Origin: Thelonectria olida
Lineage: Eukaryota > Ascomycota > Sordariomycetes > Hypocreales > Nectriaceae
Assembly: GCA_020736575.1 (NCBI GenBank)
Contig: JAGPYM010000015.1
Coordinates: forward strand, 620,001-684,000
Direction: 5' to 3'
DNA length: 64,000 bases
The notes beneath the pieces were generated by a model. The model did not search any database. It saw nothing but the letters and a program-made list of their open reading frames with translations, and was not told the DNA's origin. How positions within the stretch are numbered: the first letter of the stretch is position 1; each line of letters begins with the position of its first letter. Below, in pieces: positions 237 to 60,354 of the stretch. The translations under genes and the position numbers were made by a program.

Positions 237-3200
237 TCACTCCTTTTCTGGAAGCCCGATAAATTTGCCCTTCACGTCGTCGATTCTTCGCAGATATCTT
301 GCAACTTCTGCCGGTCCCCTTTGCCGTACCAGGTCAGGGACAATGGTCTCGTCCAACGACAGCGCCAGCTGCCTCGCCGTCATGCCTCCATCCATGACCT
401 TTGCGTACGCCTCCAACGACACACCCAGCCAAGCCGACAAAAGCTTGCGTTGCACATAACCCAGTGCCCTCTTCACTATCGACTGGTGCGACGACCCTAT
501 CGGTATATCAGGATCCGCCCCGGCCGCGAGGAGCGCGTCCACCGCCCCGACCCGCAACTTCATAACGGCTACGTGTAGCGCCGTTAACCCACTCTCGCTT
601 GGGTTGAGCAGCGTTTTCGCCAAGCCTTCCCTCTTGTAATGATCTAGTAACATTTGCAGAGTGTTGCTGTTGAACTCATATAGCCTCACGGGGAACGGCG
701 ACCCGGGTTCCACCTCATATACCGACCCGACCGAGACGGCGAGGTCCAAGACAGAATTGCCGGCCGTGCTGACGACGGGCGATGGCGTAGAGGGTGCGTG
801 CTCGAGTAGCCATTGCGCGGCGGCGCTGGAGCTGTGGTTGTTGAAGGCCACCAGCCCGCCAAGCGTCGTCAGCGCGATGCCCCCGCGGGAGAGTAGGCCT
901 GAGGAGTGGGCGGGCTCGTCCACGGCAGCACCGTGGCGAAGGAGCACGGCTGCCACACCGTAGAAGTGCCGGGTGATGGCGGCGGAGAGAGGAATGTCGT
1001 CGTGGGCGCCGTGGGCGTTTACAAGCTCCCGGGCCGTGTCCGGGGGCAGCTGGTCGAGGATGGAGTTGACGAAATACGGATCGGGGTGCGCAGCTGCAGC
1101 GAGGCCGATGATGGAGCTGAACTGGGTCGAGACCCTGGCCTTGGCGAGAATGGTGTCTTTGCGAAAGAACTTGGCAGCTCTCTGGGCTTCTGGCGAGTCG
1201 TTGACGCCCTCGATTGTCGGGATGCCGACCGAGGCATTGGGCCCTGCAAGACCCAGAAGAAGAGAGAAAACGGGCCTTTGCCCCAGAGCAAGAGCAAGCT
1301 GGACGGGGAGATGGTTTGCGGTGCCATTGGGCAGAGGATTCGTCAGGAAGGGCAAGGTCTCGTCAGGATACGAGGACACAAGATACTGCGTAATCGAGAG
1401 GTCACGGCTCAGAATCGAGTGGAAAATGGCGCTGTGCAGGTCATATGTGACACGGGAAAAACTTTCAGTGCTGAGACCCGCGAGAATGTCGATGGACCGC
1501 TGCATCTCGGAGACGTACGCAGCGCCGTGGATGCCGATGCGCATGTGCAACGGAAGCGGCGCAACCGCATTGCCTAGGAACGACTCTTCGGTGAACTTCC
1601 CCTCTGACATCTTCCACGAGTGCGGTGCCGCTGACTGCATCGTGGGTGGTTTTGTGACAGCCACTTTTAGCATTTCGAACGCGCTCTCCAAGTTGTTTGC
1701 AAAAGGCAGCGGACTGTCTCTCCAGCTTGGCACATAGGGAAAGTAGTCTGCCTCGAGGAACATGCGTATGAATGCTGTTCGATGCGCCAGACATGCGAAA
1801 GCCATAGCCGACGCGTTCTTCTTTGTGAGCAGATATGGGTTGGCTCCCAATGTCAACAGTACCTTGGCTGCAGCTGGTGCGTTTCGTTGAACAGCTCGAC
1901 AGAGAGGTGTGCCTGGTGCTACGGAGCTGCGAAAATGAGCGTTGAATATCTTGTTCTCGTTGCATTCAAGTTCGAGACTGGCGCCATTGCTGACCATCAT
2001 ATGTGCGAGGTTGAAGAGCTCTTCTTCGTCCATATCGAATGCGCCAAGCCAATGAAGTACATTCTCACCATTGGATGTCAATAGAGAGCTGTCAGCTTCA
2101 AGGGTGAGAAGGTGTTGGGCGATATCTGCATGGCCAGAACGACAAGCCTGAAGGAGCGGCGTTTCTCCGCGCACATTCACCACGTTCAAGTCTGTGTTGG
2201 TGCAGAGCCGACGGACCGTCTCGAGATGGCCTGTTGTTGCTGCGATGTGCAACACTGTGTCGCTTGCCTCGTTGAGTGTGCCAGGTACCTGCGCATCAAG
2301 AGTTGAAGCCAGGAGGCCCGGATGTTGTTGCAACACGTCTTCGTAGAGCTTCCGACCAATGCCACAATACTCTGTTCGGAACTGCCAGTTCGCCTGAACA
2401 TAGGCGGAATGGTCAAGTATCCGGAGGTGCTCCGCGGCAATATGTGATCCCAGATGCGTGGCGTTCTCTAGCCACGATATCAGCGCTGAGGGCGATACTT
2501 TCGGAAGGGCATCGAGCTGGTCTGGTTGAATGCAATGCTGGGCTGCCTGGACAAACGAGTAATAGATGGCCTGTGCGGACGGAGCTCCCTCGTCGCATGC
2601 CATCTTGAGCCACTTCATAACGAGTCGCCAGTCGATGTCGTAGCCGTTGTATTGCTCCGAGTTTAGCTCTACCGGTCGAACGGTCCCAATCCGCAAGACA
2701 TAGAACATGGCGACCGAGTAGCATGCATCAGCTCTCCTAGCAGCAGTCTGGTCTTGATTAGTGTAAATTGACGTCAAAGAATCCAGAATCTGCGTCTGCG
2801 CGGGCAACGGCAGCGTCTGGAGATCGTTGAAAGATGTAAATGCCTGTCTTTCTTAGCAAAACTGAAGCAAAGGTGGAAGCCATGACACACGCAGCGGACT
2901 TACTGGTCGATCGTGCTGACTGGAGTCTCCCAAGCCTGATCTCGGCTCCTCGTCGAATCTATCTTCCCTGTCATTTACGACGTGAGCGGAATGCCTTTAA
3001 ATGGGGTCCTCGCAGAGCCGCGAGTCTTGCAGAGGAAATTCTCACCTTTGGCTTGCGTACCGAAGCAAAACAGACAGATCCCTCACCTCGTTGGGACAGA
3101 GAAGGGAGGAAATTAAGTGCGTGACTTCTGTAGCCCTTTCTTCAGGGACGAGACCCCGGACACTATCCAAGGCAATGTCGAGGAACCCGTCTACCTCTGT

Positions 3201-4178
3201 CTTGGCCTGCTGGAAAATATGCCCCGACGAGTCGAAGACAGTCAGCTCCCATGGTGGTCTGCCGTCAAGAAGAGCTGTCCATAGCAGCAGACCGCAGCTG
3301 TAGACTTTCGAGATGCCGCATGTTAGTCGATTGGTCCTACAAGCGACGCGCTGGCCTTGCTTACCGTCCGCGCTCAGAATAAAGTCGTTTGAGCACTCCT
3401 GGCCCCATTCGGGGACTGCCCAGATTGGCGTTCCTCTCTCCCACCTCAGGTCCACTCGCTCATCCAAGATGATAGACAGGCCAAAGTCGGCGAGCTTAGC
3501 CACGGGGTGCCCTTGGGCCGTCTCACATACCAGGATATTGTCAGGCTTCAGATCAGAGTGGCAGATGCCACACATGTGCAACGCCTGCACGCCAGCAGCG
3601 ATGTCTCCCATCAGCTGCAGCTTCCTGTCCAGATCATGCGGTGTCGCCCGGGATAGAAACTCGCCCAGGGTGCCAAAGCTGCCGTACTCTTCCATAATAA
3701 TTGGCCAGACTGCCACACCAGAGGCTGGATTCTCGCGCTCCCAAGCGAAGCCGTACACGTCGAGGATGTTAGGGTGGTGGCGCAACCGCGGATGCGAGAT
3801 GACGCGGAACTCGTTGACAATGTTCCGGATGGCGTTTTCTCTCTCGAACAGCAGTCGTGGCCGCTTCAGCACCACGATCTTGCCCTCGGTCAGGCGGCTC
3901 GATGCCTCGCTGGACGTGCGCAGGGCCATCTGGCCCCGGAGCTGGAGGAGCTTGACGTCGAACTGGGCGCCGGAGCCGATGACGTTGCTGGTCTGGACGT
4001 CGTCGGTCATGCCAAAGTCGCTGTAGAACTCGTCGAGGAGAAAGATGTCGTGGAATAGCATCATGAAGGAGGCAAAATCGTTCACCGGACCTGCGACTTT
4101 GATCGAGCCTACCGAAGCGCTAGATGTCCTTCGGTAGGACGACTCTCGCTGAGTCGAGGCGGTTGTGAAGTTTGCCAT
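237..4178 (-). CDS. Protein kinase-ankyrin repeat fusion protein
   Basis: Four exons (4178-3365, 3304-3046, 2967-2904, 2843-237) give 1247 aa, and all phases close. Introns are 60, 78 and 60 nt. Residues ~75-358 are a protein kinase with a glycine loop (GSGAQF), an ATP lysine in VVLKRP, catalytic loop HSDLKPDN (HSD for HRD, Asp and Lys kept) and DFG in LADFGLS, so it looks catalytically competent. A helical, Sel1-like stretch follows at ~395-480, then ankyrin repeats from ~570 to the C-terminus, for example TVLHIAATTGH and LTALHVAVMKLR. The first intron (3305-3364) is a multiple of three without stops, so an unspliced model would add 20 residues. It diverges from the HeLo-pseudokinase gene across a shared ~420-bp promoter. 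No signal peptide or membrane segment is seen. The likely role is cytosolic signalling; substrate unknown. Confidence is high for architecture and moderate for exact splice sites. Confidence 0.85.
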
Positions 4179-4598
4179 GGTCGGGGTTCGAGTTGAACTT
4201 GTCGCTGTTGGTTCAGGCTAATATGTTGAAAGCAAGATAATTGCAATGAACAGTTCATGTCGGTGTCAAGAAGAGGGGAACGATGCCCGGAGGCTGAAGT
4301 GCAAGCGACATGGCGTGGGGTGATGCATCTCAGCTCCCCCAAATGTGCACATCACAGCCACCGCCATCAACCAAAAAAGCAAGGCAAAAGCCGAATCCGG
4401 TTACTCACATTCCTATATCACATTCTTACTCGTGAGGGGTTCTGCGCAGAGATAGCCAGACCCAGGCAACCCTCATCCCCCCTCTTCCTCTTAAGCTCGA
4501 CTCGCCCCATGCGTGCGCATATACCACGAACCCCATCCACACCACATACTGATCTACCTACCAGCAGTTCAGCCTACAGCCACCCTCTCTCTGAAAAA
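4179..4598. promoter_or_regulatory. Shared divergent promoter of kinase-ankyrin and HeLo-pseudokinase genes
   Basis: This 420-bp intergenic region separates the two head-to-head start codons and must hold both promoters and both 5' UTRs. A pyrimidine-rich stretch lies at about 4465-4500 on the plus side, a common arrangement just before fungal start sites. The plus-strand frame stays open through much of the region, with an in-frame ATG at 4509, so a short Ser/Thr/Pro-rich extension of the HeLo protein cannot be excluded. I see no clear TATA box. Confidence 0.5.
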
Positions 4599-6281
4599 AT
4601 GGCGGTTGAACCCGTTGGCGCAACTCTTGGTCTCCTTGGTCTCGTTGGCTCCATCGTGGAGGCCATCCATTTCGGATATGCCATCAAGGACATGCCCGAT
4701 GGCCTCCGAACGGCCCGCATGAAGCTAGAGCTGGAGGGCTCTTTTCTCCAAGCATGGGCCGAAAATGTTCTGCTCGTCGACGAGGGTCTGTCGGGTGGCG
4801 TTCGGGCCATTCCTTCGAAGGATAGAAAGCTCATCAAGGACACTCTGGAAGAGCTGCTAAAGCTGTTTGACGAGTCATCTGGTCTCGTGGAGAAGTATGC
4901 CAACCCGAACAATCTTGAGCCACTGAGCCTCGGCAAGCAGGCTGTTGGACCTGGCAAGCTTTTCAGATGGCTATCCATCAAGCAGGTGCCTCGACCCAAG
5001 GCATTGAAATGGGCCATCAGAGAAGGTGCAAGGCTGGAGGGTCTGGTGTCCAACATTAACTTCTTCCGGGGGTGCCTTGAGAAGATGTTGCCCATGAACA
5101 TGGAGCTGTTCAAGCTGCAGATCCTGGTCGATACCGTCTCCGAGAGCACTGTCGACCATCTCGACGCTCTGCGCAAGGCGGCAGAGCAAATCATGATTGA
5201 CAGCCCGGCCGACGCACCTGCAATGCAGGCCATTTGTGCGGCAGCCTTGATCCGCGAGAAGCTGCCTCCCTGGGAGATTGAAACCGCTCACCTGAAGGCC
5301 TATATCGCAACTCTGTCGAAGGACATCACGGCGTTGGCCTCAAAGCCACCGGCAGACATGACACTGTGGCAGACGCAGCTCCGCGACACGAATCAATCTG
5401 TCATAGTAGAATGGAGACTAGCAGAGGATGCGCAAGACGGGCTGTTCGAGCGCGACGTCATCCAGCTCGCGAATCTGCTGTCAAGCCTGAATCAGCATCC
5501 AGACGCCCACCTCCCGAGATGCCTAGGCTATGTCAAGCAGAGCAACTTCGATGGCAACAGGCCAAGATACGGTCTCATATTTTCTATCGCGGGCTCAGAG
5601 GCTTCCGTCGGCCAGACCATCAAACCAGTAACACTTCTCAAGGCAATTCAGAAAGGCCAAAGGTCGAAGAAACTGCCAGATCTTGCCGACCGACTCCGCA
5701 TGGCTCTCGAACTGTCCATCTCGGTGTTTCAGCTCATGGCTGCCAGATGGGTCCATAAAGGCATCACCAGCGCCAACATTGCCCTCTCATCCGTAGCATC
5801 CGACAAGGACTTTGTCTTGCTCGGGTTTCAAGTCGCCCGTCCCGAAGTCAGCGGCCAGGTATCGCGCGACCTGACCATGTCACACTCACTCGACAGCTAC
5901 CGTCACCCGGCCGGAGTAAGCACCGAGTGGGGAACAGAGCGGTATAACAACGCCGGCGGGTACCGACGTGAGTTTGACATCTACAGCCTCGGCGCTGTCA
6001 TGGCTGAGATTGGGCTGTGGCGGTCCCTGGAGGACATCCGGGTCAGCGAGGATGGGAGGAGGCAGAAGAGGGCTCAGTCAGCTCTCTCAGCGGCGCAGTG
6101 GACGGCACACTTACTAGGCAAAGTGCGGGACGAGATGCCAGGAGCCATGGGCGGGAGATTCACAGCAGCGGTGGGCTGGTGTCTTGGAGTGGGAGATGAG
6201 GATGCCACGACTGGTTCTGGGTCTCTATTGTCGGATTTCGAAGATAATGTTTTGAGGCGGCTGATGGCGTGTAGGATTTAA
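4599..6281 (+). CDS. HeLo-domain pseudokinase (MLKL-like architecture)
   Basis: A single exon encodes 560 aa from the ATG at 4599 (context AAAAATGGCG). Residues ~1-210 match the fungal HeLo / prion-inhibition-and-propagation helical domain, starting with a hydrophobic glycine-rich helix (MAVEPVGATLGLLGLVGSIV). Residues ~255-500 are a kinase fold with its catalytic residues gone: the beta-3 Lys is absent (VIVEWRL), HRDxKxxN has become HKGITSAN, and DFG has become GFQ. HeLo and HELL domains are related to the MLKL four-helix bundle and act as membrane-targeting cell-death executioners. A HeLo plus pseudokinase is therefore the MLKL order of parts. The neighbouring divergent gene is an apparently active kinase. 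The start was chosen because HeLo domains begin at the protein N-terminus; an in-frame ATG at 4509 is an alternative. Domain call strong, death function inferred. Confidence 0.82.
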   Translation: MAVEPVGATLGLLGLVGSIVEAIHFGYAIKDMPDGLRTARMKLELEGSFLQAWAENVLLVDEGLSGGVRAIPSKDRKLIKDTLEELLKLFDESSGLVEKYANPNNLEPLSLGKQAVGPGKLFRWLSIKQVPRPKALKWAIREGARLEGLVSNINFFRGCLEKMLPMNMELFKLQILVDTVSESTVDHLDALRKAAEQIMIDSPADAPAMQAICAAALIREKLPPWEIETAHLKAYIATLSKDITALASKPPADMTLWQTQLRDTNQSVIVEWRLAEDAQDGLFERDVIQLANLLSSLNQHPDAHLPRCLGYVKQSNFDGNRPRYGLIFSIAGSEASVGQTIKPVTLLKAIQKGQRSKKLPDLADRLRMALELSISVFQLMAARWVHKGITSANIALSSVASDKDFVLLGFQVARPEVSGQVSRDLTMSHSLDSYRHPAGVSTEWGTERYNNAGGYRREFDIYSLGAVMAEIGLWRSLEDIRVSEDGRRQKRAQSALSAAQWTAHLLGKVRDEMPGAMGGRFTAAVGWCLGVGDEDATTGSGSLLSDFEDNVLRRLMACRI

Positions 6282-15961: not shown

Positions 15962-16880
15962 CTAGATGAGAAACACGTCTGTATCCTTGCCGACCGTGAC
16001 CTTCTCAATACCCTCAAGGCCCTCATTTTCCAACGCCTTCACAAGCGAGTCTCCCTGATCCTCCTCTTCATTAACTCCGAAGGATGCTCCCTTGGAGAGT
16101 GTGGCGTGGGACCATTGACGATCCAGGACGCCCTTACTGATCTTTGCCAGCCTTATAGCCCAGACAAAGTCGGACCTTTTCTGAGTTGTTGTCGAAGTAC
16201 CGGTTTCGTAATTGAAGTTGACGTCGGCCTTTAACTCGGAAACACCAGAAACGCCCCTGAAACACAAAGTTAGATTAATATTCTTACACTGCCTTATCCA
16301 GTAGATCTGTGGACTGTGCGACTTACACTCCGGGCCCACTGTGAATGCCCTGTTTCTGGCTCTCAATTCTCGATGTCTTCGCCCCGCGGGCGATGATAAT
16401 ACCGGTGATCATGAAGATGGATTTCGCGATCCCCAACGTGGTGTGCTTCTCGACATGCTTTGCCACTCTAGTGCCTTCAATCGTGTCCTCGATGTACTCA
16501 TCCGTCGGCTGGATGATAAAAGTCTCTAGTTTCTCGAATTGGTCGGAGTGTTGCACCGACCTCTCGAAGGCAACGCCGGCATCGAGTGTAAGCTCCAGTC
16601 CCAGAGCAGCGGCGATGGGAGCGCCCACACTTGCGTCGATGCCGGTGCCGCTGCCTCTGGTCGCCTCCCAGGTCAAATCCCATGCCGTCGATGGGTATAC
16701 TGGCATGTCCGGGGGAAATTCGTTCGGCCCCTCGGTGTTGATGATGTTGTCGAGCTGCTTCAAGTCAGGGATGACATGGCCAAGACATATGACTCCCTTC
16801 GCGACACCGATGCCGTTCTCTGGGAATACCGGCGGTGGGTAGTGCGTCTGTCGGAGGACGAACCAGCACTTCGACGTCAT
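15962..16880 (-). CDS. Gasdermin-like pore-forming protein (HET-Q1/RCD-1 type)
   Basis: Two exons (16880-16327, 16256-15962) with a 70-nt intron (GTAAGT...CTAAC...TTTCAG) encode 282 aa. The protein matches the plan I know for fungal gasdermins: an N-terminal strand-rich opening ending in GHVIPDLKQLDNIIN, a glycine/alanine-rich amphipathic segment (GTGIDASVGAPIAAALGLEL), a helix with FEKLETFIIQPTDEYI, a strand SIFMITGIIIARGA, and a C-terminal strand hairpin with a short acidic tail (EEEDQGD onward). There is no separate inhibitory domain, as usual in fungi, where the tail of a few dozen residues is removed by a protease to free the pore-forming part. A subtilisin-like protease gene starts 4.1 kb away. 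The family call is from memory of motifs, not a search. Confidence 0.72.
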
Positions 16881-16968
16881 GATCTGGCCGGCGGCAAGTA
16901 GTCCTGGAAACTCTGGTGCTCGTAGCCTCGAAGATATGTTGACCGACTCGGCTGGCGTAGATCATGGG

Positions 16969-16974
16969 TTTATA
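16969..16974 (-). promoter_or_regulatory. TATA-like element of the gasdermin-like gene
   Basis: TATAAA on the minus strand about 90 bp upstream of the start codon at 16880, a plausible core promoter position. Confidence 0.35.
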
Positions 16975-17410
16975 AGTCTACGGACAATGGAGGAGGAGAA
17001 GGAAGTAAGTTTGCGACCCCGCAGCGGCCGAGGAGACGGCCCGTCGAGCCCGCCCGCTCTCAGTCGGGTCGGGCCGCCTTGGGCATCAGCTGCTTACGGT
17101 TTGGGTAGCTAAGGATTCTGCCGGGCTAAGCCGAGTGCGACAGGACCTCCAAGGAAGGGTGCCCCCTATTTAGATTGCCCGTATGTGTCAATGTCGTGTC
17201 GGTATGTCTCTGTGGTTGGCTCACCATCTGAGTAGTTAGGTAGGTAAGGTAATGTAGCTTGTGACGAGGATCCAAGCACCGCATGTCTCGGTAAGTGGAA
17301 AATGTGACTTCCGGGTAAATCATTTTGCCCGTTCTACCTGCGTAATTTGCCAGTACCTGGCTACTTAACTCACCCCATAATCCATCCACGTCAGTCTGAC
17401 GGGCCCGACT
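16975..17410. other. Intergenic region between gasdermin-like and AAA+ genes
   Basis: Holds the distal upstream sequence of the gasdermin-like gene and the 3' end of the AAA+ gene, both transcribed on the minus strand. No coding signal is seen; it has a GGTAGGTAAGG string near 17235. Confidence 0.4.
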
Positions 17411-20400
17411 CTACTGGTACACACTGCTCCCACTGTCGTCATCCTCGTCGCTACTTATACTAGAACCCTCTTCACTGTCACTGCTACTATCATATCTCTT
17501 CGTTATCACAGTTATTGCAGACGGCGATGACCGGTATTTGCTCGACTTTGACGATCCAATCGCTGGAGGTTCGAAGTTGTCCATCCTGATGCTAAGCTCC
17601 GACGCCCTTTGCGTGTCACTCCCCCGACACTCCTCCACTGTCAAACACATTGTTAGTGACGGTAAAAGGGACAAAGGCTGGGCGGGGACGAACGATAGCT
17701 TTCAAACGCATTCGCTGACCCGACTACTATTCTCAAATGCTTGCGTCGAACCCGGATCTCCTTCAGCCTCTTGCTGGCTGTACTATCGTCAGCTGGACCC
17801 GATGGTGCCTCCAAGGTCAGCCGGCTCTCATCTGCAGCGAAAACGATTGCCGCTTCAAGCATATTTCGAATCTGTCTGCCGTTCCAAGTGCGGCCTCGGC
17901 TTGCAGATTTACGCACATGTCGGCGCGCAAAGCGCAGGATATCTTTCACTTTGAAGGTGACCGGAATGCCGTTGTGCTCGTGTTGTTGTTTCAGGTGGCT
18001 CTCCCAGATCCTCATAGAAGAGGCTTCATCTGGTGGTTGGAAAGCTAGAGCGATGTGGATTCGAACTTTGAAGGCCTCATCGATCAAACCCACTCGATTT
18101 GTGGTGAGAAAAATGACACCAGTAAAGTTGTCCAAGGCGTCAAGGAACACTGAGAGGTTTGTGAGGAGATGGTTGCAGTTGATCCGACGAAAAAGTCAAA
18201 GACTCACTGGATACAATACGGTTTTGGTCTATGTCGTTCCCTCTTTCACCGAGGTATATCTCGGCATCATCGAATAAGACTAGGCAGTCCCAACGAGATG
18301 CCAATTTGAGGGAGTCCCGAATGCTATCAGCAAATCTCCCGGGCTCAGATGGCAGTTTTCCGCCTTTCTGGAACATTAGATATCAGAAAAATTCGTGGAT
18401 CGATAGATAACTCTCAACTCACGATGTGATAGATAGGACGTGGCGGCTGGGCGGACGCTGCAATGCTTCTTACCACGCTTGACTGAACAGTGCCTTCTGT
18501 TAGTTCTACAACAGAACAATGCTGGATGGGATATGTGGAATGCAAACGAGTTATGGCTCACCTTGCCACTACCAGGCGGTCCGTGAAGGAGGACGACGAG
18601 GCTTCGTCTGCTGCTAAAGGTCGATCCCGCACTTTCTTCCAGACTCATTTCACGACGTGGGCGCGAGTTAGCGATGACCTTCAAAATAGCTTCGTGTCCG
18701 GAAGGGATGATTAGCTTGCTCAAGAAGCGGTTTGGATTAGGGAGGGGCGAGAATCCAAAGCTCGGCAAACCGTCTAGAATTCAAGTCAGTGAGAAACGAT
18801 GCAATGGACAGCGTCGGACTCACACCATTGGTGCGAAACAAGGGAGAATGCCAGCAAGTACGGGGGCAATAAGTCTTCCTCCCCCCTTGTGACCAAATCG
18901 AGTGGCGTTAATACTGAGTCATCCCAAATAGTGATCAATCTCTTACGGAGGAGCCTATCGATTTGCTTGTCGCTGAGAACCTGAGATTGGCAGGTTTTAC
19001 AAGCGTCGAAAAAGCTCGACGGAAGGTTGTCTGTCTCACACTCGGGCCCTTCTGAAGTCTGGGAACCCCTCATGTCTAAGTGATCCCCAAGTTCAGGTTC
19101 CATCTCGTAGCCCGTCTTAAAGTCGACGAAAACCTCGCCATCGAGGTGGTCCAATGCAAGGTCATTCATGCGAGATTTGACGGACCCCTGGTACCGCGCA
19201 TGGCCGTAACGGTGGGCGAGGAACGATTTCCCTCGAGCCTCCAGGTCTAGACCACGGATAAATTCGATGGGAAATGCGTCAAGACGCACTACTCTCCGTA
19301 GACCTGAGAAAGGTTTAATCTTAATGACCTTCCATCTGGACCGGAAGCTCCTTCCATCGTATCCTATCGAGTAGCAGGCGACGCGTAAGGGCTTATCCAG
19401 GAAGCCCCCATAATGTGATCGACTGCGAGAGAGGGGACGCGGGGTTTCGATGTCATAGACGCGATACGCTTGCTGGACGTGGTAATCTTGATAGCCGCAA
19501 TTTCTAAAAACCGTAACTCCCGGCTGGAAAAGCTGCCAAAGATCGGCGAAGGCAATCGAGTCTAAAGAGTGTGAAACAACTCTGTCTCGTGTTTTGAGCT
19601 CTTTCCGCAGATGCTGGTGGATAAAACCAACGAGTAGTTTGACGAAAGGGAGTAAACCTTTTCCTCTCTTGCGATCATCTGCTTCCTGAGCGCCTTTCTC
19701 GACTGTTTTCTCGGCAATTGCAAGACTTGGAGACTCGCCCGTCAAGGTGGCATCCTCAGGATTGGACCTTAATTCGCCCTCCATCTCCCGAAGCCCAGCC
19801 TTGATTTCGTCTCGGAAAAGGATGAGCAACTGTGCGTCGTCAGCTGTGCCTTTTATAACCAGGGTCCGTCTCTCCCCACCTTAAATGGATAGAACATGCT
19901 TTGCCCTCCTCGCTTAGCAATGCATTGGCTTCTGGATTCAGGAAGTGAAGAACTCACAAGCAGGGAACTGTGGATAATTTTACGCCCGTCACCCGTCTGA
20001 GAAACGATATCAGAGGAGGGTAGTTGATCAAGATTGCAGAAGGGCGGGATGGGCTTCCTTCACCCGTGGGGTGCTCAACGCTGGGCATGCGACCCGCGAC
20101 GATCGCGTATGGAGTGTTTTCAGCAAGCCCCATCTCGTGATAGATGCAGCTTGCTTCATCGCATGACTCATCATTGTTGAGGAGTTCCGCAGCGCGGCGC
20201 AGGGTCACTTCTTTGACTGAAGGAATTGTCCCTACTTCCGATACAGGTAGAGTCGGCGGTGGGTCTGGATGCTCAGGCACAATCCGGGGCCCCCCTGTAG
20301 GCATCGGTGTGACATTTCTTTCCAGACAGGCTTCAAGTGAGTAGAGAGTACTTCAACAAGGGTGGTATCCTCACCTCTCCTGGGACGGTGATCGTGAAAT

Positions 20401-20448
20401 GATCTCCTTTCGCAGTTCCATGACATCCATCGCTGACTCGACAGACAT
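17411..20448 (-). CDS. DUF7025-type AAA+ ATPase
   Basis: Eight exons (20448-20375, 20317-19958, 19869-18824, 18773-18562, 18482-18423, 18367-18208, 18149-17694, 17637-17411) give 864 aa with closing phases. An N-terminal disordered part precedes a region with FQPGVTVFRNCGYQDYHVQQ and AYRVYD, as in fungal DUF7025 proteins. The AAA+ module has Walker A GPPGSGKS at ~557-564, recovered only when the 79-nt intron 18483-18561 is removed at TTCAG/TCA, Walker B LVLFDDAEIYL, and sensor-like FLTTNRV. The C-terminus is acidic and Ser-rich. The second Asp-Glu of Walker B reads DDAE rather than DEAD. Least certain are the 88-nt intron 19870-19957 and the GTTCGT donor of the last intron. It lies between the gasdermin-like gene and the protease and diverges from the latter. 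Role unknown; a remodelling or regulatory ATPase is inferred. Confidence 0.8.
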
Positions 20449-21021
20449 GAAGTCGATGAGGTGTGTGGCTCAAAATTCGCCAACGTCTCTCTGTTGGTAA
20501 GTTGAAAAGTTGATATTCGACCGACAGAAGTGAGGACTCACACTGCCATACGAACTAGCTCTGATGGAGCGTCCTTATGACGGGACTTGAAATCTGAAGC
20601 ACTTGAGGGGTTTTACTGTAGGCATTGCGCGGAATGCCGAGTGACGTGGTCACTCTTTGCGTAGCTCCTGCCATCGGACAACCCCCGCAGCGTCGACACG
20701 ACCTGATAGGACCAGCCTCCGAGGGCTGCTTGAGGCCGACGAAGGCGCCGTCACCGGGCAGACAGCTAAGCCAATTCCGGTGTTGCTGACGAAAAGAGAA
20801 GAGGGCGAAGACTATCTAGACTCCCTAGTTAGACTCATCTTGCCCTAGCGTGCGTCTATCTGACTGCATACCCAACGAGAAGGCTCGCCCATTTTATCCC
20901 CCGCACAGCGTCCTTTTGTCCGCACGCAGTGAGCGATTCGCATTCTGGATGTGGCCTCCCGCCCGAAACTTTCACTCGACCAACCCGCCGAGGCCGTGAC
21001 GAGGCCGAGCGAGCAGCGGCC
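20449..21021. promoter_or_regulatory. Divergent promoter of the AAA+ and subtilase genes
   Basis: 573 bp between the start codons of the minus-strand AAA+ gene and the plus-strand protease gene, so both are driven from here and could be co-regulated. An open frame continues in phase upstream of the protease ATG but has no in-frame ATG in its last ~90 bp. No TATA box stands out. Confidence 0.45.
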
Positions 21022-24000
21022 ATGGAAAGAACTCTCCTAGAGTTTTCAAAGGAGGTAGTATCCAAACTGGAAGACCAATGTGCCACACTGAACAGGGAAA
21101 AGACGACTCGCCAATTCACCAGGAAACTCTCTCCTGAGCTCTGGATGATCGAAAACTGCTTCGATACAAGCTATGGCAATCTAAAGATAGAGGGCGATGA
21201 AAAAATGCAGAGGAGATTGCACAGTCTCTTGAGGAAGTTTGAAGGCATTTGCAGTGTAAGTCGACCGGCTAGATGTCCCGATAGAGTCTGACCTCCTTTC
21301 GTATCGATATGTAGTGGAACCCATCAGAAGAAGCCGTCACGGATGAAGCCCAACAACAGGTTTCTAGACATTGCGAGCACTCTTCCGAGAGCGACTGGGT
21401 AAGTGACTGAGACGAACGCGGAACTTTCGACCCAGTCCTAATAGCCAACAGGCCTGCCGTATATACCCTCACCTGTGTCGACTCCTCGACCCCAAGGCGG
21501 TGATTCCAGATGGACTACAGCTCTATGCTCGCTCAGCACCACCAGAAAACCAAAATATGCTAATTGAGACTCTCGGGCGATTCGTGGAAGACAACAAGAA
21601 CCCGAAGCAACGAGCCGCAGCCGCTGCTCCTCTTGAAAGTAGCAAAGGCAAATACATGGAGGATTATTCTCCACATATCCAATATCTCTACCAAGCTATA
21701 TCTGAACACTGCGTTTGTCAGCGCACGACTGGGCTTACAGACCCGATCGTCGCCAACGTGCGGCTGGGATGGCCGGTAAAAGTACGGAAACATTCTGCCA
21801 CGTCGTCGAACTCATCGTCCTCATCATCGTCGTCCTCATCATCTTCGGATTCATCATCTGGCTCCTCGCCAGAGAACTCGGATGATGACTATTCGCAGTT
21901 ATCGGATGGGACCTCTGAGCCCGATCCCGATCGACCCATAAACTTTCATGTCTTGTTTCTGGATCACCCGCATGGATCGGTGCCGATGCATCTATCCCGT
22001 TGGCAGGACACCTGGATTTCTGTTTCCAATCCAAAGAAGTGAGTCCATTCCAGCTCCAACTATGCATTCAATTACGCATGCGTAGAAGGTTAATGATCGA
22101 GTAGTGTGAGTTGGCAAGATAGGCCGCGAAGAAAGTCGCAGGCCAAGCCTATCTCTGACTATAAGGACGGGTTCTGTGGCCTGATCTCGGGGCGCGAACA
22201 TGTCAGACTTCCGCTCGTCTTCTCGGACGGCCAGCTCAAGTTCAAGAGCCCCCGCCGGTATTCCCGTGAGTTCAAGCTCGACATGCCAAGTATTCCTCTA
22301 GGAGAGATCGTCAAGCTGGATTCCCAAACGTTTAGCCAGAAGAAGCGATTCGTGCTTAGCTACATCTTGGCCAGGGCAGTGTGGCAGAACTACGAATCCA
22401 AGTGGATGATTCGAGAATGGTCGAAAGATGCAATCCATTTCATGTACGAGTCTAGAGGCGAACAGAGCGGCTTCTTCGTTGACGAGCCTTTCCTGCATAC
22501 CGACTTTCTGCTCAGAACGAACGACATCAGCAACGACGGAGTGAGGGTACACAAGTTCCCCAATATCTTGGCTCTAGGAATCATGTTGATCGAAATAAAT
22601 CTTGGAATTGCGATCGAGGACTTTCGAACCGCAGAGAGTTTCGGACAAGGTGGTAAACTAACAGTGAATGCGGACGCAGCGAGCGCTGAGAACTTGACCA
22701 AGGACAAGAGGAGGTGGACAGAGATCCCGGAATTCTTGACAAACGCCATACATTCCTGCATGAATCCCAGTAAATTTTCGAGGAAGATAAAGAGAAAGGA
22801 TATTTCCAGCCACCGAAAGCACCTGTACGAGCATGTCGTCAAACCTTTGCGATACCTCTGCGAGACTGCATACCAAAACAATCTTGAAGTGGCAGCTATC
22901 GATCTTCCCCGCCCGGCAGGCTTGATAGAGTGGGAGACGCAGCAGTCTTTAGACAACTGCATAGAGTCGGACGACGAGGACCAATCCTTTCTCGGAGTGC
23001 CGCCGCGCATGGAACAGATGCGCAGTCAGAGCACGGGTGCTATTAGGCAAGTTGACCGGTAAGAACGAATGCAAACGGTATGGCTGAAACGTGATGAGCT
23101 GATTGCGAGCATACCTACAGGCCTGCACTTCCGCCAAAGTCAAACACGGAGCAACCGGGTCTCGGCATGGCTCTGGACGGGTCCATGTCAAACGAGTAAG
23201 TCTTAGAACGACATTGTGGCCTGTCGAACTTTCCTTGCTGACGGTTGTCAGTGGCATCATCTCGTCATCGGACGAATGGTTCTCTTTCTTGAGCAAGCTG
23301 AATTTACTTCTCAGGGCAAAGGCGAACGAAACTTGTTCAAATAATGCTCGTGTTAGAGTAGCCGTGCTGGACACGGGGATTCGGAAGGAATATAGAGAAC
23401 TGGTCCGAGGTTACAAGGACTATGTCACTGGGAATGACGACGCTCCAATTGACATCTCTGCCTCCAGCCACGGGACCAATATAGTTCGGCTTATCTTGAA
23501 AACCTTCAACACGGCCGACATCTACGTGGCTCGCATTTTCGAACAGGAGAGAATGGATGACGATAACCTGATTTACAAAGCCCAAACACTGGTTGCCGAG
23601 GTATACATTTTTACACTACCTAACTTCCTCCGTCTGTGCCATCACTGACATGACTTCTTATTACACACATGCAGGCCGTTCGAGATGCGACTAGCAAGTG
23701 GAAGGTGGATGTCATCGCCATGGCGTTCGGGTTTGAGACAGAACATGAAGACATGAGAAAAGCCATCATGGAAGCAAAGGCTAACGGCGTGCTCGTCTTT
23801 GCTGCTGCTTCAAACTACGGCAATATGATGGGGATTGCTTTTCCTGCTAGACTGCACCAGGATGTCATCTGTGTCTTCTGCACCAATGCGCGCGTCAAGA
23901 CCTCTCAGAGCATCAATCCAATGCCGTCAGAGAAACGTACCTACAATTTGGCCATCTTTGGAGAGAATGTCCACCTAGGGCCAGTTGAGCCCGCTCTCAC

Positions 24001-24289
24001 CGGGACATCTTTTTCAACAGCAATCGCCGCGGGACTGGCCGCCCGGCTCATCGATTTCTCGCGGCATAAGGATTGCCGAGAGCTGTTCAAGGAAGAGGCC
24101 GCGCACCTCAAGCTCGTTGCCGGAATGGAATCCGTCCTCGCAAAGATAGCTGGCGGTGCATCGGGAGATGGCTACTACTGCGTTGCACCATGGAGACTGC
24201 TGGACTGCACAAAAACATGTGAGGGGCGTGCCATGAAGAGAGCCGCGATTTGTGAAACTATTAAAGTTGCTTTGAGGGAAAGACATTAG
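21022..24289 (+). CDS. Subtilisin-like serine protease with DUF7580-like N-terminal region (HET-Q2-like)
   Basis: Seven exons (21022-21255, 21315-21398, 21452-22038, 22105-23058, 23121-23195, 23252-23600, 23675-24289) give 965 aa. The start ATG sits in GGCCATGG. After a helical N-terminus come a Ser/acidic low-complexity linker (~223-260) and a DUF7580-like, degenerate kinase-like region (~265-600, with FHVLFLDHPHG, RFVLSYILARAVWQNYESKW and ILALGIMLIEI). The C-terminal S8 domain carries the full triad: Asp685 in VAVLDTG, His718 in SSHGTN and Ser873 in GTSFSTA. No signal peptide is seen, so it is intracellular. In Podospora the subtilisin HET-Q2 cleaves the gasdermin HET-Q1 to trigger incompatibility death; this gene sits 4.1 kb from a gasdermin-like gene. 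The protease call is strong and the substrate is inferred. Confidence 0.85.
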
Positions 24290-24711
24290 TAGAGGGAGGA
24301 CTCACCACATCTAATACAAGAGTTATCTCTAGCTGAGCCCAACTTCAATATTCCACATCGCAACTCAACACCACAATTCAGAAACTAAGGACGGCGATGT
24401 GCTATGAGGTGAGATGCGCAGGTCATGCACCCCACAGTCCTATTACCGATCTGGCATGCCCATAGCTACAAGCACGCCAGGGTGTCTCTTCGCGAAAGCC
24501 ACTCATCTTGGTCCGTCTCTCCAGTTCATTCCCCGCTCGGCCAGCTCAGAAACTCAGCAGAACAATCCTAACGTGAGAAAAATCCCTCTTGAGCACAAAG
24601 GATCTCCAGAAGCTCTGGTTCAGGCAAGTGGTTGCATATCCTCAACTAACTAACACAGTCGAGCACGTGTCAAACGGCCCCTCGCGGGACTGTCTTCAAG
24701 TTCATGTATCA
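24290..24711. other. Intergenic region, tandem genes
   Basis: About 420 bp between the protease stop and the C2H2-STAND start, same strand. It should hold the terminator of one and the promoter of the other. Nothing else is recognised. Confidence 0.4.
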
Positions 24712-27700
24712 ATGAAGGCCAGCAGCGAAATTTTCCATCTCACACGCCATTGCGCTTCCCAGTTTTCCGACTGCCAGTCAGTATCCGGGCTGACAAAAGA
24801 CGACTGGATCGGGGAGAGGCTTGCCGACTTCAACCTTTGGGCGGCTGGAATCAGAGCATCGGCAACTGGCCCCTCGTCACTTGATCACCGAGTGCGAGAT
24901 AGACCCGACGTGAAGAATGTTCTAGTCAGCATTCTTACCACTATCAGAGAAGCAACGGAGCGATGCCTTCATAAGCACAATGATGAACTATACCTTCAAA
25001 AGAAGACGCCAAAGATCACAGCTGAAGCCTGTGGGATATCAGATGCAGATGGCCACTCCGCTCCGCCGTCCTCCCATAAACCTTCGTCACTGGTGACCCA
25101 AAAAGCGACTGACAACCCATGGTCGGACTTTTCAGACGACAGCCCGGACGATGTCGCGGCTCGGCCAAACAAGGTGGCTGGGCCTTTTGCGTCCGAGATG
25201 AAAGAGATCTCAATGGCGCTCAGCCAGCTTTACCGCGTTACCATTCTCATCCAAAGGTCTGGCAAGGAGTACAGGTTCCGGAGAGCAGACAAAGAATTAC
25301 CAAGCGTCGTAGACACCGAAGAGTACGCGCAACTCAGGACGCATCTGGAATTTATCATCTTACTTGGCCAAAGAGAGGTCAACACAGAATTCTGGCAGCG
25401 CGAGGACAACGAGGCGTTGTTACTGAATTGGAAACGAACTTCGGAATTGACCGACGTTCACAGAGCCTTGATCAACGCGAACATTGTACGGAGAAATCGC
25501 ATTCGCTTCGCTACGAGACATCTAGCGCCGCAATGGAAGGCCACTTCTACTCAATCGTTGACAGCAAAACGGCCAGAGCCACAGGAAAAACAGCAGGTGG
25601 ACGCGCAGACATCTGGCCCTCACCCCAACCGGTCGCCAGACTTAGAGCAGGCGGCCCTGGCAAAACATGAGCTTGGTATTGAGGAACAGGGAGATGTTAA
25701 CATCTCAGACCAACTCACGCCTGATGCGCCGCAGCTTGCCAAGCCTCCACCTACGTCTACCGAGATAGGCTCTATGTTTATGAGGAGTCCACGGACAGTG
25801 AAAGACAAAGGGACAGCAATCACGAGGATCACGAGGATCACGAGGATAGGCGCAAAGCAGGACTATCCAAAGCCGCCGAAAGGCCGAGCCATGTTTTCTT
25901 GCCCCTACTGTGCCCAGACGCTGTCGGCTGAGTACACTGACAACTCCAGATGGCAGTACGTTCAAGCGTCGTCTATCGTACACTATTCTGACGGGAGAGC
26001 TAACATCTTCCAGAGGACATGTTAAGCAGGACTTGATTCCATATACGTGCGTCTTTGAGAACTGCGAAATCGCAGGAGAACTCTTTGAGTCTTCGGAAGA
26101 GTGGATGGCCCATCTTACGACGGCACACAGCCAGACTCGTTGGGTCTGTAGCCTCTGCCCGACGGATTCTATGCACGACGAGGAAGTCTTCTTCGACAGC
26201 GGCCAGGCTTGGAATGATCATATAGTTGCCGCCCATGCTAACGCGTTCCCCGACAACCAGATGGAAGATTTGGCCAGCATGAGCGAGCGGACCGTTCTCC
26301 AGCCCATAGCCTGCCCTCTTTGCCCGCATTTTGATCCGTCCGAAGCCGAGCCCTACGACCACATTGCCAACCATCTGCATGAGTTTGCGCTGAGAGCCCT
26401 TCCATGGGAGAATAACGACAGGGGTGGCAGCTATTTTCATTCCGTTGATTCTGACAATCCTGGAGGAGGTCCGGCGACCGAAGTAGCCAGTACCATTGGA
26501 GACGGCAGCGATGACAATGACAATGAAGATCAACCATCTACAAACAAGGTGGATACTCTATGGCAGGTCATACACCAAGTATCGACACAAAAAATAGGCG
26601 TTCTGTCATTTGTTACGGAAAGCTATCGATACACTCTTCAGCAGCTGGCCAATTTATTGACCCGTATCCGGACACTTGATCTCCAGTTCGAGCTCGAAAA
26701 CAACCCAGAGGATGAGTTTAGCGGAGGGGCTGAACATAAACCCAACATCAAAAACAGGATTGATGACAACCCTAAAGACAAGCTGAACGACAGGCTTGAC
26801 GAGTTCATCCGCCCACTACTCCGGATTCAGGAGAATTTCCGCTGCCTCCCCAAACAGGCAGACCATGTGTCGGGTGAAGAAGCAAGAGAATCAGAGGAGA
26901 TCCTTCATGACGAGTGTGCAACTCTACGATTGCTGATTGAGAGGGAGGAATCACGGCCACTTTTTGAAAAAGCATTCCAAGCACAGTCGGAACTTGCTAT
27001 TACCCAGGTGAAGAGCGCTAAACCTTCCGTTTTGGCCAGATATTCTATATGCCAGATTTCAGATGTCTCTAGCGAGGTGGTGCAAATCTTCAAGGAGGCC
27101 GACAAGACAGCCAAGGGCAAGAATCAGTATGGTGCGGCGCATCAGCCGCTACGCAACATGTTTGGCGGCTTTTTTACCGCTGTCACAGACGAGACAAAAT
27201 TCTTTTCGTTCCTTCCATTCGATGACCTATCTACATCAATCTGCGGTGGCATGGTTCTCATTGTCAAACTTATCGCCGAAGCTTCCAAGAAGTTCTCCGT
27301 GGCGCCTTTCCTGGGTGTCCTGGAGACTATTTTATTTGCCACAACTACGAAACTTCCCTTTACAGCCTTAGACGAGCCCCGACCAGAGAATTTTATTCAA
27401 CAGATAGCTGCGCTGTGTACCGCCATCTTCCGTCTTTTGACAGCCGCCACGAAGTTTCTCATACCAGGTGAGTCTATGCCAGACATGCAATGAATACCTC
27501 CAGTCACCAACCAGATTCGCCCCAGGGAAACATAAAGACCCGATCTTAACACCGCTATTTCACTACGAAAACCAGATACTTGACCGAGAAAGGACGATCT
27601 CGCCGTTGCGCCGCGAAGTTCAAAACGCCGTCTTGAAAATACTCGATGAAAGCAAGGTCTTACGTTCCAAAGCATTGTTGCAAACTGAAAGCCGCCTCAC

Positions 27701-28772
27701 AATCATGCAGCGCATGTATGAAGCTTTAATACAGTCTCCAAGCTTAGCCGCCTCCCCGCTACCCCCAGAGCTTAAGAAAGCTCTCAGTGAGCCGAGTGAT
27801 CATCAACGCGAGCTGCTTGGTGAGAGCCACGAGGTTCTAGCGAGACTCCTCTGGACGAAAAAGCAGACGGGTGAGTTATTCATCTTGTCTCTAGCGCACT
27901 AAAGCAGTTCTGACTTGATCGGACCAGAGATGACTACCGCCCGTAAGGACAAAAAAGTTCTCAAAGATGATCATATCCAAGATCTCGTTGCCCAGGATGA
28001 CCTCGTTGCGGAAGATTGTCGCAGAATCTTAAGATCTGTCCAGTGGAAGCACGGAGAGACACGCCAACTTCTATATCTCCTCAACCATAAGAAGTTTCGG
28101 GATTTCTTCACGTCTCGGTATTCATCGGTTCTGGTCATTCAAGATGGCGGCCCTCGTGGACGAAAGGCTCCTCTTACCCTTCCATTCATCATGGCCATGA
28201 TAGTGCAACATTTCCGTGCCACATTGTCTTCAGGCCAGGGAGACTTCATCCTTGCCTGCTTCTGTGGTGCCCCAGCCGGCTCCACGCGGATCCGGGACGC
28301 CAAGGACATGATGATCCGGCTTGTCTCTCAACTAATGCTGCAGTGCAACAACCTGAGCGACTCTGTTCTTGATGACAGCTTGCTTCCTCTCACGGGAGCA
28401 ACAACGAAAAGCCTTCTGAAGCTCTTCTCGCATCTCCTCCAACACCTTCCTTCTAATGCCCGGGTTTATTGTATCATTGACTTGCTCGACTCATCTTCGA
28501 TGCTGAATGGGAGCACTGAAGGAGTAAAACCTTTGTATCGTTTACTAGAAATTCTGGACAAGGCTCACGACCGGGAAACCAAGGTGAAGATCCTGCTCAC
28601 TACTTCTAGTGTAAAGTTGGGTCCTGGCCTTGACTTGGACCGAGATGACGTCTTGGACATGGCAACTTTGAGAAGGAATGCAACGCAGCCGCCCGGGCGG
28701 CTTGGGTACAGCCAAATTAGCCACACATCTGTTTGGAAAGCTCTTACATTAGGAAGCCATCCCCATCGGTAG
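24712..28772 (+). CDS. C2H2 zinc-finger / STAND-like protein with degenerate NTPase
   Basis: Four exons (24712-25955, 26014-27467, 27526-27870, 27928-28772) give 1295 aa with closing phases. Introns are 57-58 nt. The N-terminal helical part contains SLDHRVRDRPDVKNVLVS and NPWSDFSDDSPDD, typical of fungal C2H2 multi-domain proteins. Residues ~405-560 hold a finger array (FSCPYC, YTCVFENC...HLTTAH, WVCSLC...HIVAAH, IACPLC...HIANHLHEFAL). A helical DUF7708-like region follows (~720-880, FLPFDDLSTSICGGMVLIVK), then a C-terminal NACHT-like part where the P-loop is lost (QDGGPRGRK) but a hydrophobic Walker-B-like strand remains (VYCIIDLLDSSS). It has no repeat sensor domain. It may act as an adaptor or degenerate STAND receptor; this is inferred. 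A three-copy ATCACGAGG repeat (~25828-25849) encodes TRI units before the fingers. Confidence 0.75.
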
Positions 28773-32260: not shown

Positions 32261-34680
32261 AAACCTTCTCCAAAACAAGATTCCCGCCGATGAAGAAGCT
32301 ACTCGCGAAGCTCGGATCGCGGTTGATAGAGCTATCAAGCGCCAGACCAATTAGGAAACATGCTTTCACAAGTTTGTCCTAATACACCAGGAGAAGTATC
32401 AACGAACAGGAAAATTGAAGATTAGAAGATGCTATTCTGGCTGTACAACAAGCAGTCGATTCAACTCCACAGACACACCCAGCACACGCAATCTTGGCAG
32501 TCGACTTGGCGACCAATTCTCAAGAACAGGGGCGAGAGAAGACCTTGAGGACTCGATTCGATATGGGCGGAAGGCGGACGCTATGATCCCTCAAAACTAC
32601 CCCGATAAGCCAGCTCGTTTGGATGTTCTTACCAGTCTGCTTATGAAGAAACATCTGATAACGGGGGCGACAGAGGACCTTGATGAGACTATTCAGTATG
32701 ATCGTGACGCAGTTGAGACGAGCACGACCACACCGACGAAGCAAATAGACTACTCAACCTCTCGAATGGGCTTGGGAAGAGACATCTAAGGACAGGCCTG
32801 ATATGTGACCTTGAGGAATCCATCTAGTGCACACGAGAATCTATCGACCTCACCCCCAAAGACCATCCCATTCGAGCAACACAATTACAAAACCTTGTGA
32901 GCAGCCCTATAGTTGCACTTGGCGAGCGGTACAAACGGACTCGGATTGCCCTCGATCTTGACGAGGCTCTGCAGACTGCATCTGAGACGCTAAGTAGTCG
33001 ATGAGACTCTAGAAGACAATCTAGAATGACTAAAGCGTCTAACTATCTTCGACATCATCCTTCTCCATAAGTTCACAGGAACAAAAGCAACGCAGGACAT
33101 TGAAGAGATCCTACAAGTTCAACGAGAAGCTATGAAGACAAGTCTGCAATACTAGACCGAGCCGTCTGTTCTTTTCGCTGTCTTAGACACTCTTGGTCGC
33201 AAATACTTGGTAACAGAAGCTATCACCGACGTGGACGATGCCATTGAAGTTGGATGGGAAGCTGCCAGCACGGCTCCATCAGACCTTCCAGAGGTAGCAC
33301 TTTTATTGAATGGACTTGGGATCAAGCTGCACAACAGACAACAGATAATGAGGACTTGCAGCGACTTTGCGTTCCCTTCGAAATTCCGGCAAGCAAGATC
33401 TACTTAGCAACGTGGCTGGCCTCACCTGTGAAGCTACCGCAGTAGCGACATATGCAGATAAGGGGCCATTGGAGATATTGAACTTGCTCGAGGAGGTTCG
33501 TGGCGTTCTCGCAACGTCTCTAGACGAGATGAGGGCAGATATCCTGGACCTGCGAGAGAAGTACCCAAAAATGGGAGACGAGTTTGTTTCTCTCCAAGAA
33601 GGCCTAGATCTGCCCGAGACACTGAGCGCAAGTCTCGATAGTTTCTCCGACGTTCGATTACAACGCCGCTACCACATGGGCAGAAGGCGTGATGGGCTCA
33701 TCTCTGAAATCCGAACATAACCCGAATTCGACAACTTCCTCCTTCATACGAGTAAGCCGGAAATAGGAGATTCGGTGAGATTTGGACCGATCGTCTTTAT
33801 CAACGTTAATTAGCTTCGCTGTGACACGAGGCTTATCGACCAACGCCAGATGCAGCTGGCACATTTGCCGAGCCTGACTCAGAGAGACGTCGGCGAGACG
33901 GTACGTAGTGGAGAGAAAGGCAGCGCTGAGGTCCTTGAGTGGCTTTGGGATGCAGTCGCGAAGCCCATCTTGGATGCTCTGGGGTTTACGCAGCCTCCTC
34001 AATCCGACGATGATTGCCTCATGCCTGGTGGATTCCTACTGGCCGTCTCAGTATGCTCCCGATTTACGCAGTCGGATAACACCACAAAAAGTCATCAGAG
34101 ACAGTGCTTGACAGGGTCATCTCATCCTACAGTTCATCTGTCAAGGCAATCATCCATACCCGTCGCCGTCCGATTACCCCATATAACTCGCCTAGGGAAA
34201 TTCTTGTTCCCGTTGAGAACACAACTGGCTGCTCAAAGCTTTCGTTTGCAGCGAAATAGGTTGATATTTTGCATCTCGTGTGCAAGGAGATAGCACTCGA
34301 GACTCTGCGGTCGTTACTGCACAAGAAGGACGTCTTGCCAGCTTTACCTCGCTGTAGCGTTTTTCATTTCGCTGGCCATAGTTACACAGATCTATCCGAC
34401 CCATCCCAAAGTCTGTTGCTATTAGGGAACGGAGAAACCGACCCTCTGACCATAGCCAGCCTTGTGGCAATAAATCTGCGCCAGGACCCTCCATGCTTAG
34501 CCTATCTGCGAGCCCGTGGGACTGGTCGGATCAAGGACGAGAGATTCATTGACAAGTATCCATTTGAACAGCGGATGTCAACTAGCTGGCGTGTGGGAGG
34601 TTGATGACAAACTCCGTACGATATGGCAAGAATCACGTATGGGACAATGGTGGGCGGGATGACAGATGAACCCGTATCTT
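32261..34680 (+). pseudogene. Decayed TPR-CHAT (caspase-like) gene
   Basis: The plus strand carries fragments of a fungal TPR-CHAT protein in shifting frames. Upstream are TPR units such as EDAILAVQQAVDSTPQTHPA, REDLEDSIRYGRKADAMIPQ and TEDLDETIQYDRDAV. Mid-gene is VLEWLWDAVAKPILDALGFT, then a CHAT-like part with SVKAIIHTRRRPITPYNSP and SVFHFAGHSYTDLSDPSQSL. Numerous stops and frameshifts separate these pieces. The His of the dyad is kept (FAGH), but the usual catalytic motif ACGTG reads ARGTG, a Cys-to-Arg change (CGT at ~34512-34517). The gene is dead both by frame and by active site. CHAT proteases are one of the two protease types associated with fungal gasdermins, and this relic is 16 kb from the gasdermin-like gene. 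Confidence 0.7.
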
Positions 34681-46120: not shown

Positions 46121-46964
46121 TCATTGATGAAACGAATAAATAAGCTGCGAATTGAAAGGCCTAGGCGCCGTCGAGCAAACGGTGGAATGGTAGAGATACA
46201 GAGACTCATAGTTAATAGGGGATGTCCACCTCCCCAAAACACATCATGCTGACCTGCTTCCACGCTATATATACTAGTCTATCCGCTCTGATGCTTTCCA
46301 GCACTCTCAACTTGACGTAACCCGATCCCTGCAAGAGACGGATGCTGTTGCTCAATTTTATGTCCGTAACGACACGAACAGGCAAGGCGGAGACTTGTAT
46401 TGATCCAGGTGATTTGTAGGAAGCAGGCTCTATTTGGATTGGAGCTGAACACATGATGGGCTTCCCCCTAATTGAGGAATGCAGATGAATCTTTCGTTTT
46501 TCGATCAATAGACATTAGCTCCCTCTTGCCGAGTAGGACCCAAAGATATGATGGATCATCTTGCAATTCCTCTCAACGCATCCTTCCTACTTGTCTGCTT
46601 CTGTCAAACATTCCAGCCTCCAATAATGGCCCCCAACACTATTTGTGCCTTGGGGGAGCCTCTTGCACAGCCTTCGCTGAGCCCCCCACTACATAATGCG
46701 ACCCTCAGGCGAGCCAAGCCAAGTCTGCCCAGCGGACGTCCCTAATAGGGCTTGACCACCTGCATGGAGAGTGGCGAAGTTGGAGGCGATGCTCATCAAA
46801 GGCAATTGTGGTGTCAGTCACTTATTTTACGTATCCCGCCAGTGTTGCGTATTATTATCTAAACACCAATGCTTTGAGTAGCATCCGGTCCTTTCTCCCC
46901 AGCCCACCTCCTCACGAACCCAGCAATACAACGAAAGCTGCTGTGGTGCAACTAAACTCATCAC
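46121..46964. other. Intergenic region and NLR promoter
   Basis: About 840 bp with no supported gene. The last ~200 bp upstream of 46965 are the likely promoter and leader of the NLR gene; long open frames overlapping its start are out of frame with it. Confidence 0.4.
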
Positions 46965-49900: not shown

Positions 49901-50204
49901 GGAAGGCCTCCGAGCCTGGTCGAAAACAGATGGCATGCGGCAGGCTAACGGCAGATTCATGTCTGAAGTTGTTCGAAGAATTCTTGTTCATAAGAAGACA
50001 CCCAGAGAATATGTTGACCGGTTGGCTGCCGTATTACTCGACGTCTTTAGCGAGCATATCGCGAGGCCACTTCTTCGACTGGTTGGGTTCACGATACTCG
50101 GGGCTGGTGCCAGCCAGAGCCATGTCGAGACGCAGAAGAAGAGACACTGCGGGGGCGGGGAGGCTCACCAGCCTGAAAAGAGACGGAAGAATGGAAAGCA
50201 CTAA
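46965..50204 (+). CDS. NACHT NLR-like STAND receptor
   Basis: Two exons (46965-47422, 47480-50204) with a 57-nt intron encode 1060 aa. Residues 1-~150 are a helical N-terminal effector-type domain opening MDPITALSVATAVATFIEFA, of the HeLo-like/fungal STAND N-terminal class. A coiled linker precedes the NACHT domain, with Walker A GKAGSGKST at 303-311 and Walker B CLFVDGLDEY near 422-431, then CVSSRPWNVF and FLWAFLVTKSL. The region after it (RLDNLPNDLERLFKYMLDQV, KVDFLHRTVRDFL) matches the DUF7791-like part of such receptors. The C-terminus has only vague ankyrin-like traces (LLQHGEDAN) instead of a repeat array. By analogy with het genes it would sense non-self or damage and signal through the N-terminal helices. 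Confidence 0.87.
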
Positions 50205-60161: not shown

Positions 60162-60267
60162 GGGCGCCAATAGGTGCGCACCCGGGTGCGCACGTAAGTG
60201 TCACGTGTTGCGCACCCGGTGCGTCTGTAAGGAAGTTATGTAAGCCCAACATCCTTGTATGCCAGCC
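60162..60267. repeat. Left terminal inverted repeat
   Basis: 106 bp beginning GGGCGCCAATAGG, matching the right end base for base in inverse orientation. It includes a 20-bp perfect palindrome GTGCGCACCCGGGTGCGCAC at 60174-60193. Confidence 0.9.
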
Positions 60268-60354
60268 AGGCGCATCGCTTGTAGCTACCCCTTTTCCGTT
60301 GATGAAGAGCCTCACTTCGCCGCGCAACGATCTTCTCAAATTGTCTCTCCCAGA

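Follow-up and report, generated by a model that had tools for sequence, protein, structure and literature searches.

A gasdermin gene and a DUF7580-S8 protease gene at one locus of Thelonectria olida form a probable regulated-cell-death pair

HET-Q1 and HET-Q2 of the fungus Podospora anserina were reportedly described by Clave et al. in 2022 and are, together with RCD-1 of Neurospora crassa, the systems to which we compare a locus of Thelonectria olida. The locus lies in a stretch of 64,000 nucleotides (contig JAGPYM010000015.1, positions 620,001 to 684,000; hereafter the window, from whose first letter all positions are counted), where three genes of the 52.5-Mb assembly fill 15962-24289: a gasdermin, an AAA+ ATPase, and a protease that joins a DUF7580 region to a subtilase (S8) domain. 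Our account of published gasdermin systems refers to passages of PMC12881547, PMC10989679, PMC10197012 and PMC11760362. According to these passages, HET-Q1 (278 aa) loses about 5 kDa and has its likely cut site at F238, 40 residues before the C-terminus (PMC12881547), while RCD-1 has no tail and needs no protease (PMC12881547, PMC11760362). About 80% of fungal gasdermin genes cluster with proteases and about 63% with S8 proteases, called "Q2L", which come in 18 architectures (PMC10197012, PMC12881547), and Q2L proteases fused to predicted kinase-like domains occur (PMC12881547). Given these clustering rates, architectures and fusions, the T. olida locus belongs to a known kind of gasdermin-protease cluster. 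We consider it likely that its two partners are a fungal regulated-cell-death pair, in which an inactive tailed gasdermin is cleaved near Phe244 by a restrained sensor-protease, forms pores and brings about death.

A preliminary description of this DNA had placed a gasdermin-like protein, an AAA+ ATPase and a subtilisin in one block, and gene models and family assignments confirm that the block is real. The gasdermin gene (15962..16880, minus strand; exons 16880-16327 and 16256-15962) encodes 282 aa, and its spliced model, like that of the AAA+ gene, is identical to a T. olida database protein. Sequence searches and a structure model both identify the 282-aa protein as a gasdermin, as had been proposed, each agreeing with the gasdermin pore-forming domain. 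RCD-1-1 and RCD-1-2 are its closest solved relatives, and it scores far closer to RCD-1 (1.1e-78) than to HET-Q1 (6.7e-9); the solved HET-Q1 chain was not among the structural matches of the model, an absence that is uninformative. C115, a paralogue from a different subgroup, likewise matches RCD-1 only (at 2.2e-9, among matches up to E 1), so that score ranking was insufficient for grouping the protein with RCD-1, and we built a tree. There, 14 of 19 rows, including the window gasdermin and both RCD-1 proteins, share a branch with 95/95 support; HET-Q1, C9, C80, C24 and C115 fall outside it, on long branches whose placement is flagged as uncertain.

What would make this gasdermin a protease substrate is its C-terminal tail, residues 245-282 (15962..16078 including the stop codon, minus strand, from the exon 2 model), which comprises 38 residues and 4.1 kDa and carries a charge of about -8. 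Across 52 relatives the residue at column 244 is Phe in 48, Leu in two, and Tyr and Met in one each, and the tail that follows is net acidic in 51, varying in form and ranging from 22 to 69 residues. In the structure model, residues 245-250 have a pLDDT below 50 and are followed by a helix (252-262) and then by short strands. Together with the analogy to F238 of HET-Q1, this conserved hydrophobic position, low-confidence joint and acidic tail lead us to predict cleavage at or beside Phe244, with the tail as the putative inhibitory piece, which might pack against the pore-forming core. Phe244 is paired with F254 in the alignment to RCD-1-1, a chain of 261 aa. Since both RCD-1 proteins are nested among tail-bearing relatives, the tree suggests that RCD-1 lost its tail, and such a loss is a possible route by which RCD-1 escaped protease control.

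The protease gene (21022..24289, plus strand) starts 4.1 kb from the gasdermin gene, well within 10 kb, and its seven exons (21022-21255, 21315-21398, 21452-22038, 22105-23058, 23121-23195, 23252-23600 and 23675-24289) yield 965 aa, the same length as first proposed. No T. olida entry for the full-length protein was among its eight database matches, unlike for the gasdermin and the AAA+ protein; it may have been annotated differently. A 968-aa protein of Xylaria acuta aligns over the full length of the protease at 53%. Pfam finds DUF7580 (7.4e-22) and Peptidase_S8 (8.6e-9), and a profile built from all eight relatives matches subtilisins down to 4.4e-21. The S8 region (23349..24289, plus strand, with one intron inside at 23601-23674) carries Asp685 (23370), His718 (23469), Asn808 (23813) and Ser873 (24008), and the Asp-His-Ser triad is invariant in all seven homologues that bear the S8 part, out of eight relatives; the suggestion of a HET-Q2-like S8 protease with an intact triad is thus upheld. 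A kinase-like N-terminal region, likewise suggested before, is weakly borne out. With a profile from seven of the eight relatives, the solved matches of the DUF7580 region (Pfam stretch 22154..22852, plus strand) up to E 10 are C-lobes of IRAK4 only (26 of 26 chains), a weak match to one protein with a best E of 0.023, which hints that the region is kinase-like. HRD- and VAIK-type motifs were found in none of nine sequences (190 residues up to the LALG motif), and a scan of the same number of sequences for DFG-like motifs gave a single DLG, in P0128, so that judged by its HRD, DFG and VAIK motifs the region does not appear to be an active protein kinase.

Pairing of the two kinds of gene recurs across the genome. 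We count ten gasdermin loci, a lower bound made up of eight from gasdermin queries and two from a profile scan of fetched loci. An S8 gene lies no more than 6.5 kb from the gasdermin at nine of them, or at seven of eight if the gasdermin queries alone count, compared with a chance proximity of about 0.9% per locus on an estimate of some 33 S8 genes. The DUF7580-S8 form is present at seven of the ten, one of which has two copies. All eight adjacent DUF7580-S8 pairs among the matches listed (42 and 26) are within 10 kb of a gasdermin, and this architecture therefore appears dedicated to gasdermins; none of the five fetched DUF7580 loci that lack S8 is near one. The presence of both partners in one haplotype, which the preliminary description had treated as out of the ordinary, is not unusual, given the published clustering rate and the nine loci here. 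Signs of a linked pair extend to other species for three of the eight protease matches. The best relatives in X. acuta (68% for the gasdermin, and the protease already mentioned) are on contigs of equal reported size (941835), a 10,321-base contig size likewise recurs for both gasdermin and protease relatives, and in Trichoderma camerunense the two genes are on equal-sized contigs with locus tags 238036 and 238029, seven apart.

Individual loci vary. At one (L019, C80:266001-276000) the gasdermin lies between a CHAT gene and an S8 gene, and at another (L020/L021, C24:149001-165000) a single gasdermin is flanked by two DUF7580-S8 protease genes. The sole locus of the ten without S8, C57:274k, has a partial gasdermin match (L045, C57:273883-274259), and its 10-kb locus, which reaches about 4.7 kb to each side, revealed no S8; a CHAT protease as its partner was considered and dropped, the nearest CHAT gene being about 25 kb off among the matches listed.

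The published HET-Q1/HET-Q2 and Q2L scheme fits this locus, and from it we propose the following sequence of events. The gasdermin would be made inactive, its acidic tail restraining the pore-forming core, while the N-terminal region of the protease, with its kinase-like DUF7580 part, would hold the C-terminal subtilase off. A trigger, for which a non-self fusion partner, a virus, a bacterium or damage are candidates, would free the subtilase, which would then cleave at or beside Phe244. The tail would depart, and the tail-free gasdermin could assemble into membrane pores, leading to cell death. Cleavage and killing by this pair are predicted by analogy to HET-Q1/HET-Q2; that the N-terminal region restrains the subtilase, and that a trigger exists, is our conjecture, and we regard the earlier idea that the protease has to be kept inactive as supported.

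Several points weigh against this proposal. The gasdermin sits on the side of RCD-1, which acts independently of cleavage, and away from HET-Q1, and its structure model reaches a mean pLDDT of only 69.6. Of the ten loci, two came to light via their protease genes, having been fetched for DUF7580 and S8 matches. In other species a shared contig was judged by equal size, not by name, and five of the eight protease matches have no gasdermin contig of equal size among the best 120 of 135 gasdermin matches. Within the genome the co-divergence of the two partners is not significant, either over nine loci (r=0.26, p 0.11-0.12) or over six (r=0.30-0.34, p 0.11-0.13). Over 11 loci it is (r=0.76, p=0.0015; r=0.67, p=0.0025 if the alternative C24 protease is taken), a result that hinges on orthologues from two other species, and we do not claim tight co-divergence of the partners.

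The gene between the two partners raises the question of whether the system has three parts. The AAA+ gene (17411..20448, minus strand, nine exons, 857 aa) encodes clear DUF7025, AAA and AAA_lid_13 domains and an acidic C-terminus, and its start codon is separated from the divergent start of the protease gene by a gap of 573 bp (20449..21021, no strand), which is likely the promoter region of both genes. The Walker A motif is intact, and the Walker B sequence is LVLFDDAE, with DD where all nine paralogue motifs from ten fetched loci have DE, and the protein thus lacks the catalytic Glu of Walker B. An ATPase acting as a dedicated guard or remodeller, holding or disassembling the protease or the gasdermin, would account for its place between the partners and its opposite orientation so close to the protease start; with 21 DUF7025 matches and 10 loci, chance would place about 0.04 neighbours of this kind within 5 kb on each side. 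The altered Walker B may allow ATP binding without normal turnover. However, this is the sole one of the 21 DUF7025 genome matches listed that lies near a gasdermin, the other nine loci having none, and no close relative was found among the best 7999 scored candidates, the next best reaching 26%, while the protease search (best 7992) returned the X. acuta protein at 53%. We therefore think a three-part system unlikely: a control role for the ATPase, put forward in the preliminary description, is not supported as a standard one, and we rejected the gene as a general core part on its presence at one locus in ten and the lack of a listed close relative. It is probably a bystander, a lineage-specific neighbour, for which a local role as a brake is possible.

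It is also conceivable that the gasdermin works as RCD-1 does, free of cleavage and through the mutual activation of two alleles when cells fuse, in which case the protease would be unrelated to it. The solved structures nearest to it and the tree would agree with this, but the tail missing from RCD-1 is present here and acidic in nearly all relatives, and protease linkage recurs in the genome, which makes such a system quite improbable. That the genes adjoin by chance, in a region where immune-type genes abound, is more improbable still, to the point of being hard to credit: HeLo, NACHT and ankyrin genes are indeed in the window, but S8 genes accompany all but one of the gasdermin loci found, linked-pair signs are seen in other species, and clustering is the published rule in four of five cases. 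A more elaborate version of the proposed protease-gasdermin pair, which we advance as a distinctly doubtful speculation, is a pyroptosis-like circuit. In it, the subtilase activating an RCD-1-side gasdermin would be gated by a catalytically dead kinase-like module instead of an NLR or a repeat domain, a hydrolysis-impaired AAA+ protein specific to the lineage would supply a further brake, and protease-free RCD-1 would be derived through tail loss. The position of both RCD-1 proteins among tail-bearing relatives fits the last part of it.

Other genes were noted in the window. Adjoining the protease is an NLR-like gene (24577-28769, plus strand) that combines an NTPase region of NPHP3_N type with a part that by eye resembles a zinc finger. 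We rejected it as a sensor, since its reading frames yielded no P-loop motif and, with at least 152 matches in the genome (the best 150 of 217 candidates scored), genes of NPHP3_N type are too frequent for nearness to carry much meaning. A CHAT caspase-like match at 34008-34526 (plus strand) contains in-frame stop codons and is possibly a degraded protease gene. An ankyrin gene, a protein kinase gene and a gene with HeLo, a cell-death domain, adjoin one another at 240-6278; an NLR of NPHP3_N/NACHT type, which carries DUF7791 and an N-terminus weakly resembling SesA, is at 46956-50201 (plus strand), and a MULE transposase gene at 60244-62904 (plus strand).

How, then, does the locus compare with the systems described so far? 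DUF7580, DUF7025 and AAA_lid_13 had no mention in the literature searched, and the papers listed on gasdermins and fungal allorecognition contained no 'AAA ATPase'. In the review passages we did not find the DUF7580 assignment, a tail that contrasts with RCD-1 within the RCD-1 side of the family, or an altered AAA+ neighbour. The locus matters as a concrete example of a gasdermin paired with its probable protease, for which a cleavage site is predicted. The stimuli and regulation of Q2L proteases are called open (PMC12881547), and the kinase-like gate put forward here can be tested. RCD-1-1 and RCD-1-2 of N. crassa (PDB 8jyx, 8jyy, 8jyz) are closer to the window gasdermin than HET-Q1 is, by scores and tree, but they are tailless and described as activated by the mixing of alleles, not by cleavage. 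With HET-Q1/HET-Q2 the locus shares a gasdermin of about 280 aa that ends in a short tail, an S8 protease as the probable activator, and a likely cut following a Phe some 40 residues short of the C-terminus, predicted here at Phe244. HET-Q1 and HET-Q2 act as incompatible partners that meet on the fusion of unlike strains and are not combined in one strain, whereas both genes are on one contig of a single assembly here, and HET-Q2 has 388 aa against the 965 aa of the present protease with its DUF7580 region. The likeness suggested at the outset therefore holds for the gasdermin and the S8 protease, but with a gasdermin nearer to RCD-1 and a HET-Q2 of just 388 aa the locus is no copy of het-Q1/het-Q2. 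Compared with the Q2L/fGSDM two-gene clusters of fungal gasdermins (PMC10197012, PMC12881547), it has an intercalated AAA+ gene and a DUF7580 region that those passages do not name for Q2L, and it shares with them a gasdermin gene that adjoins a multidomain S8 protease.

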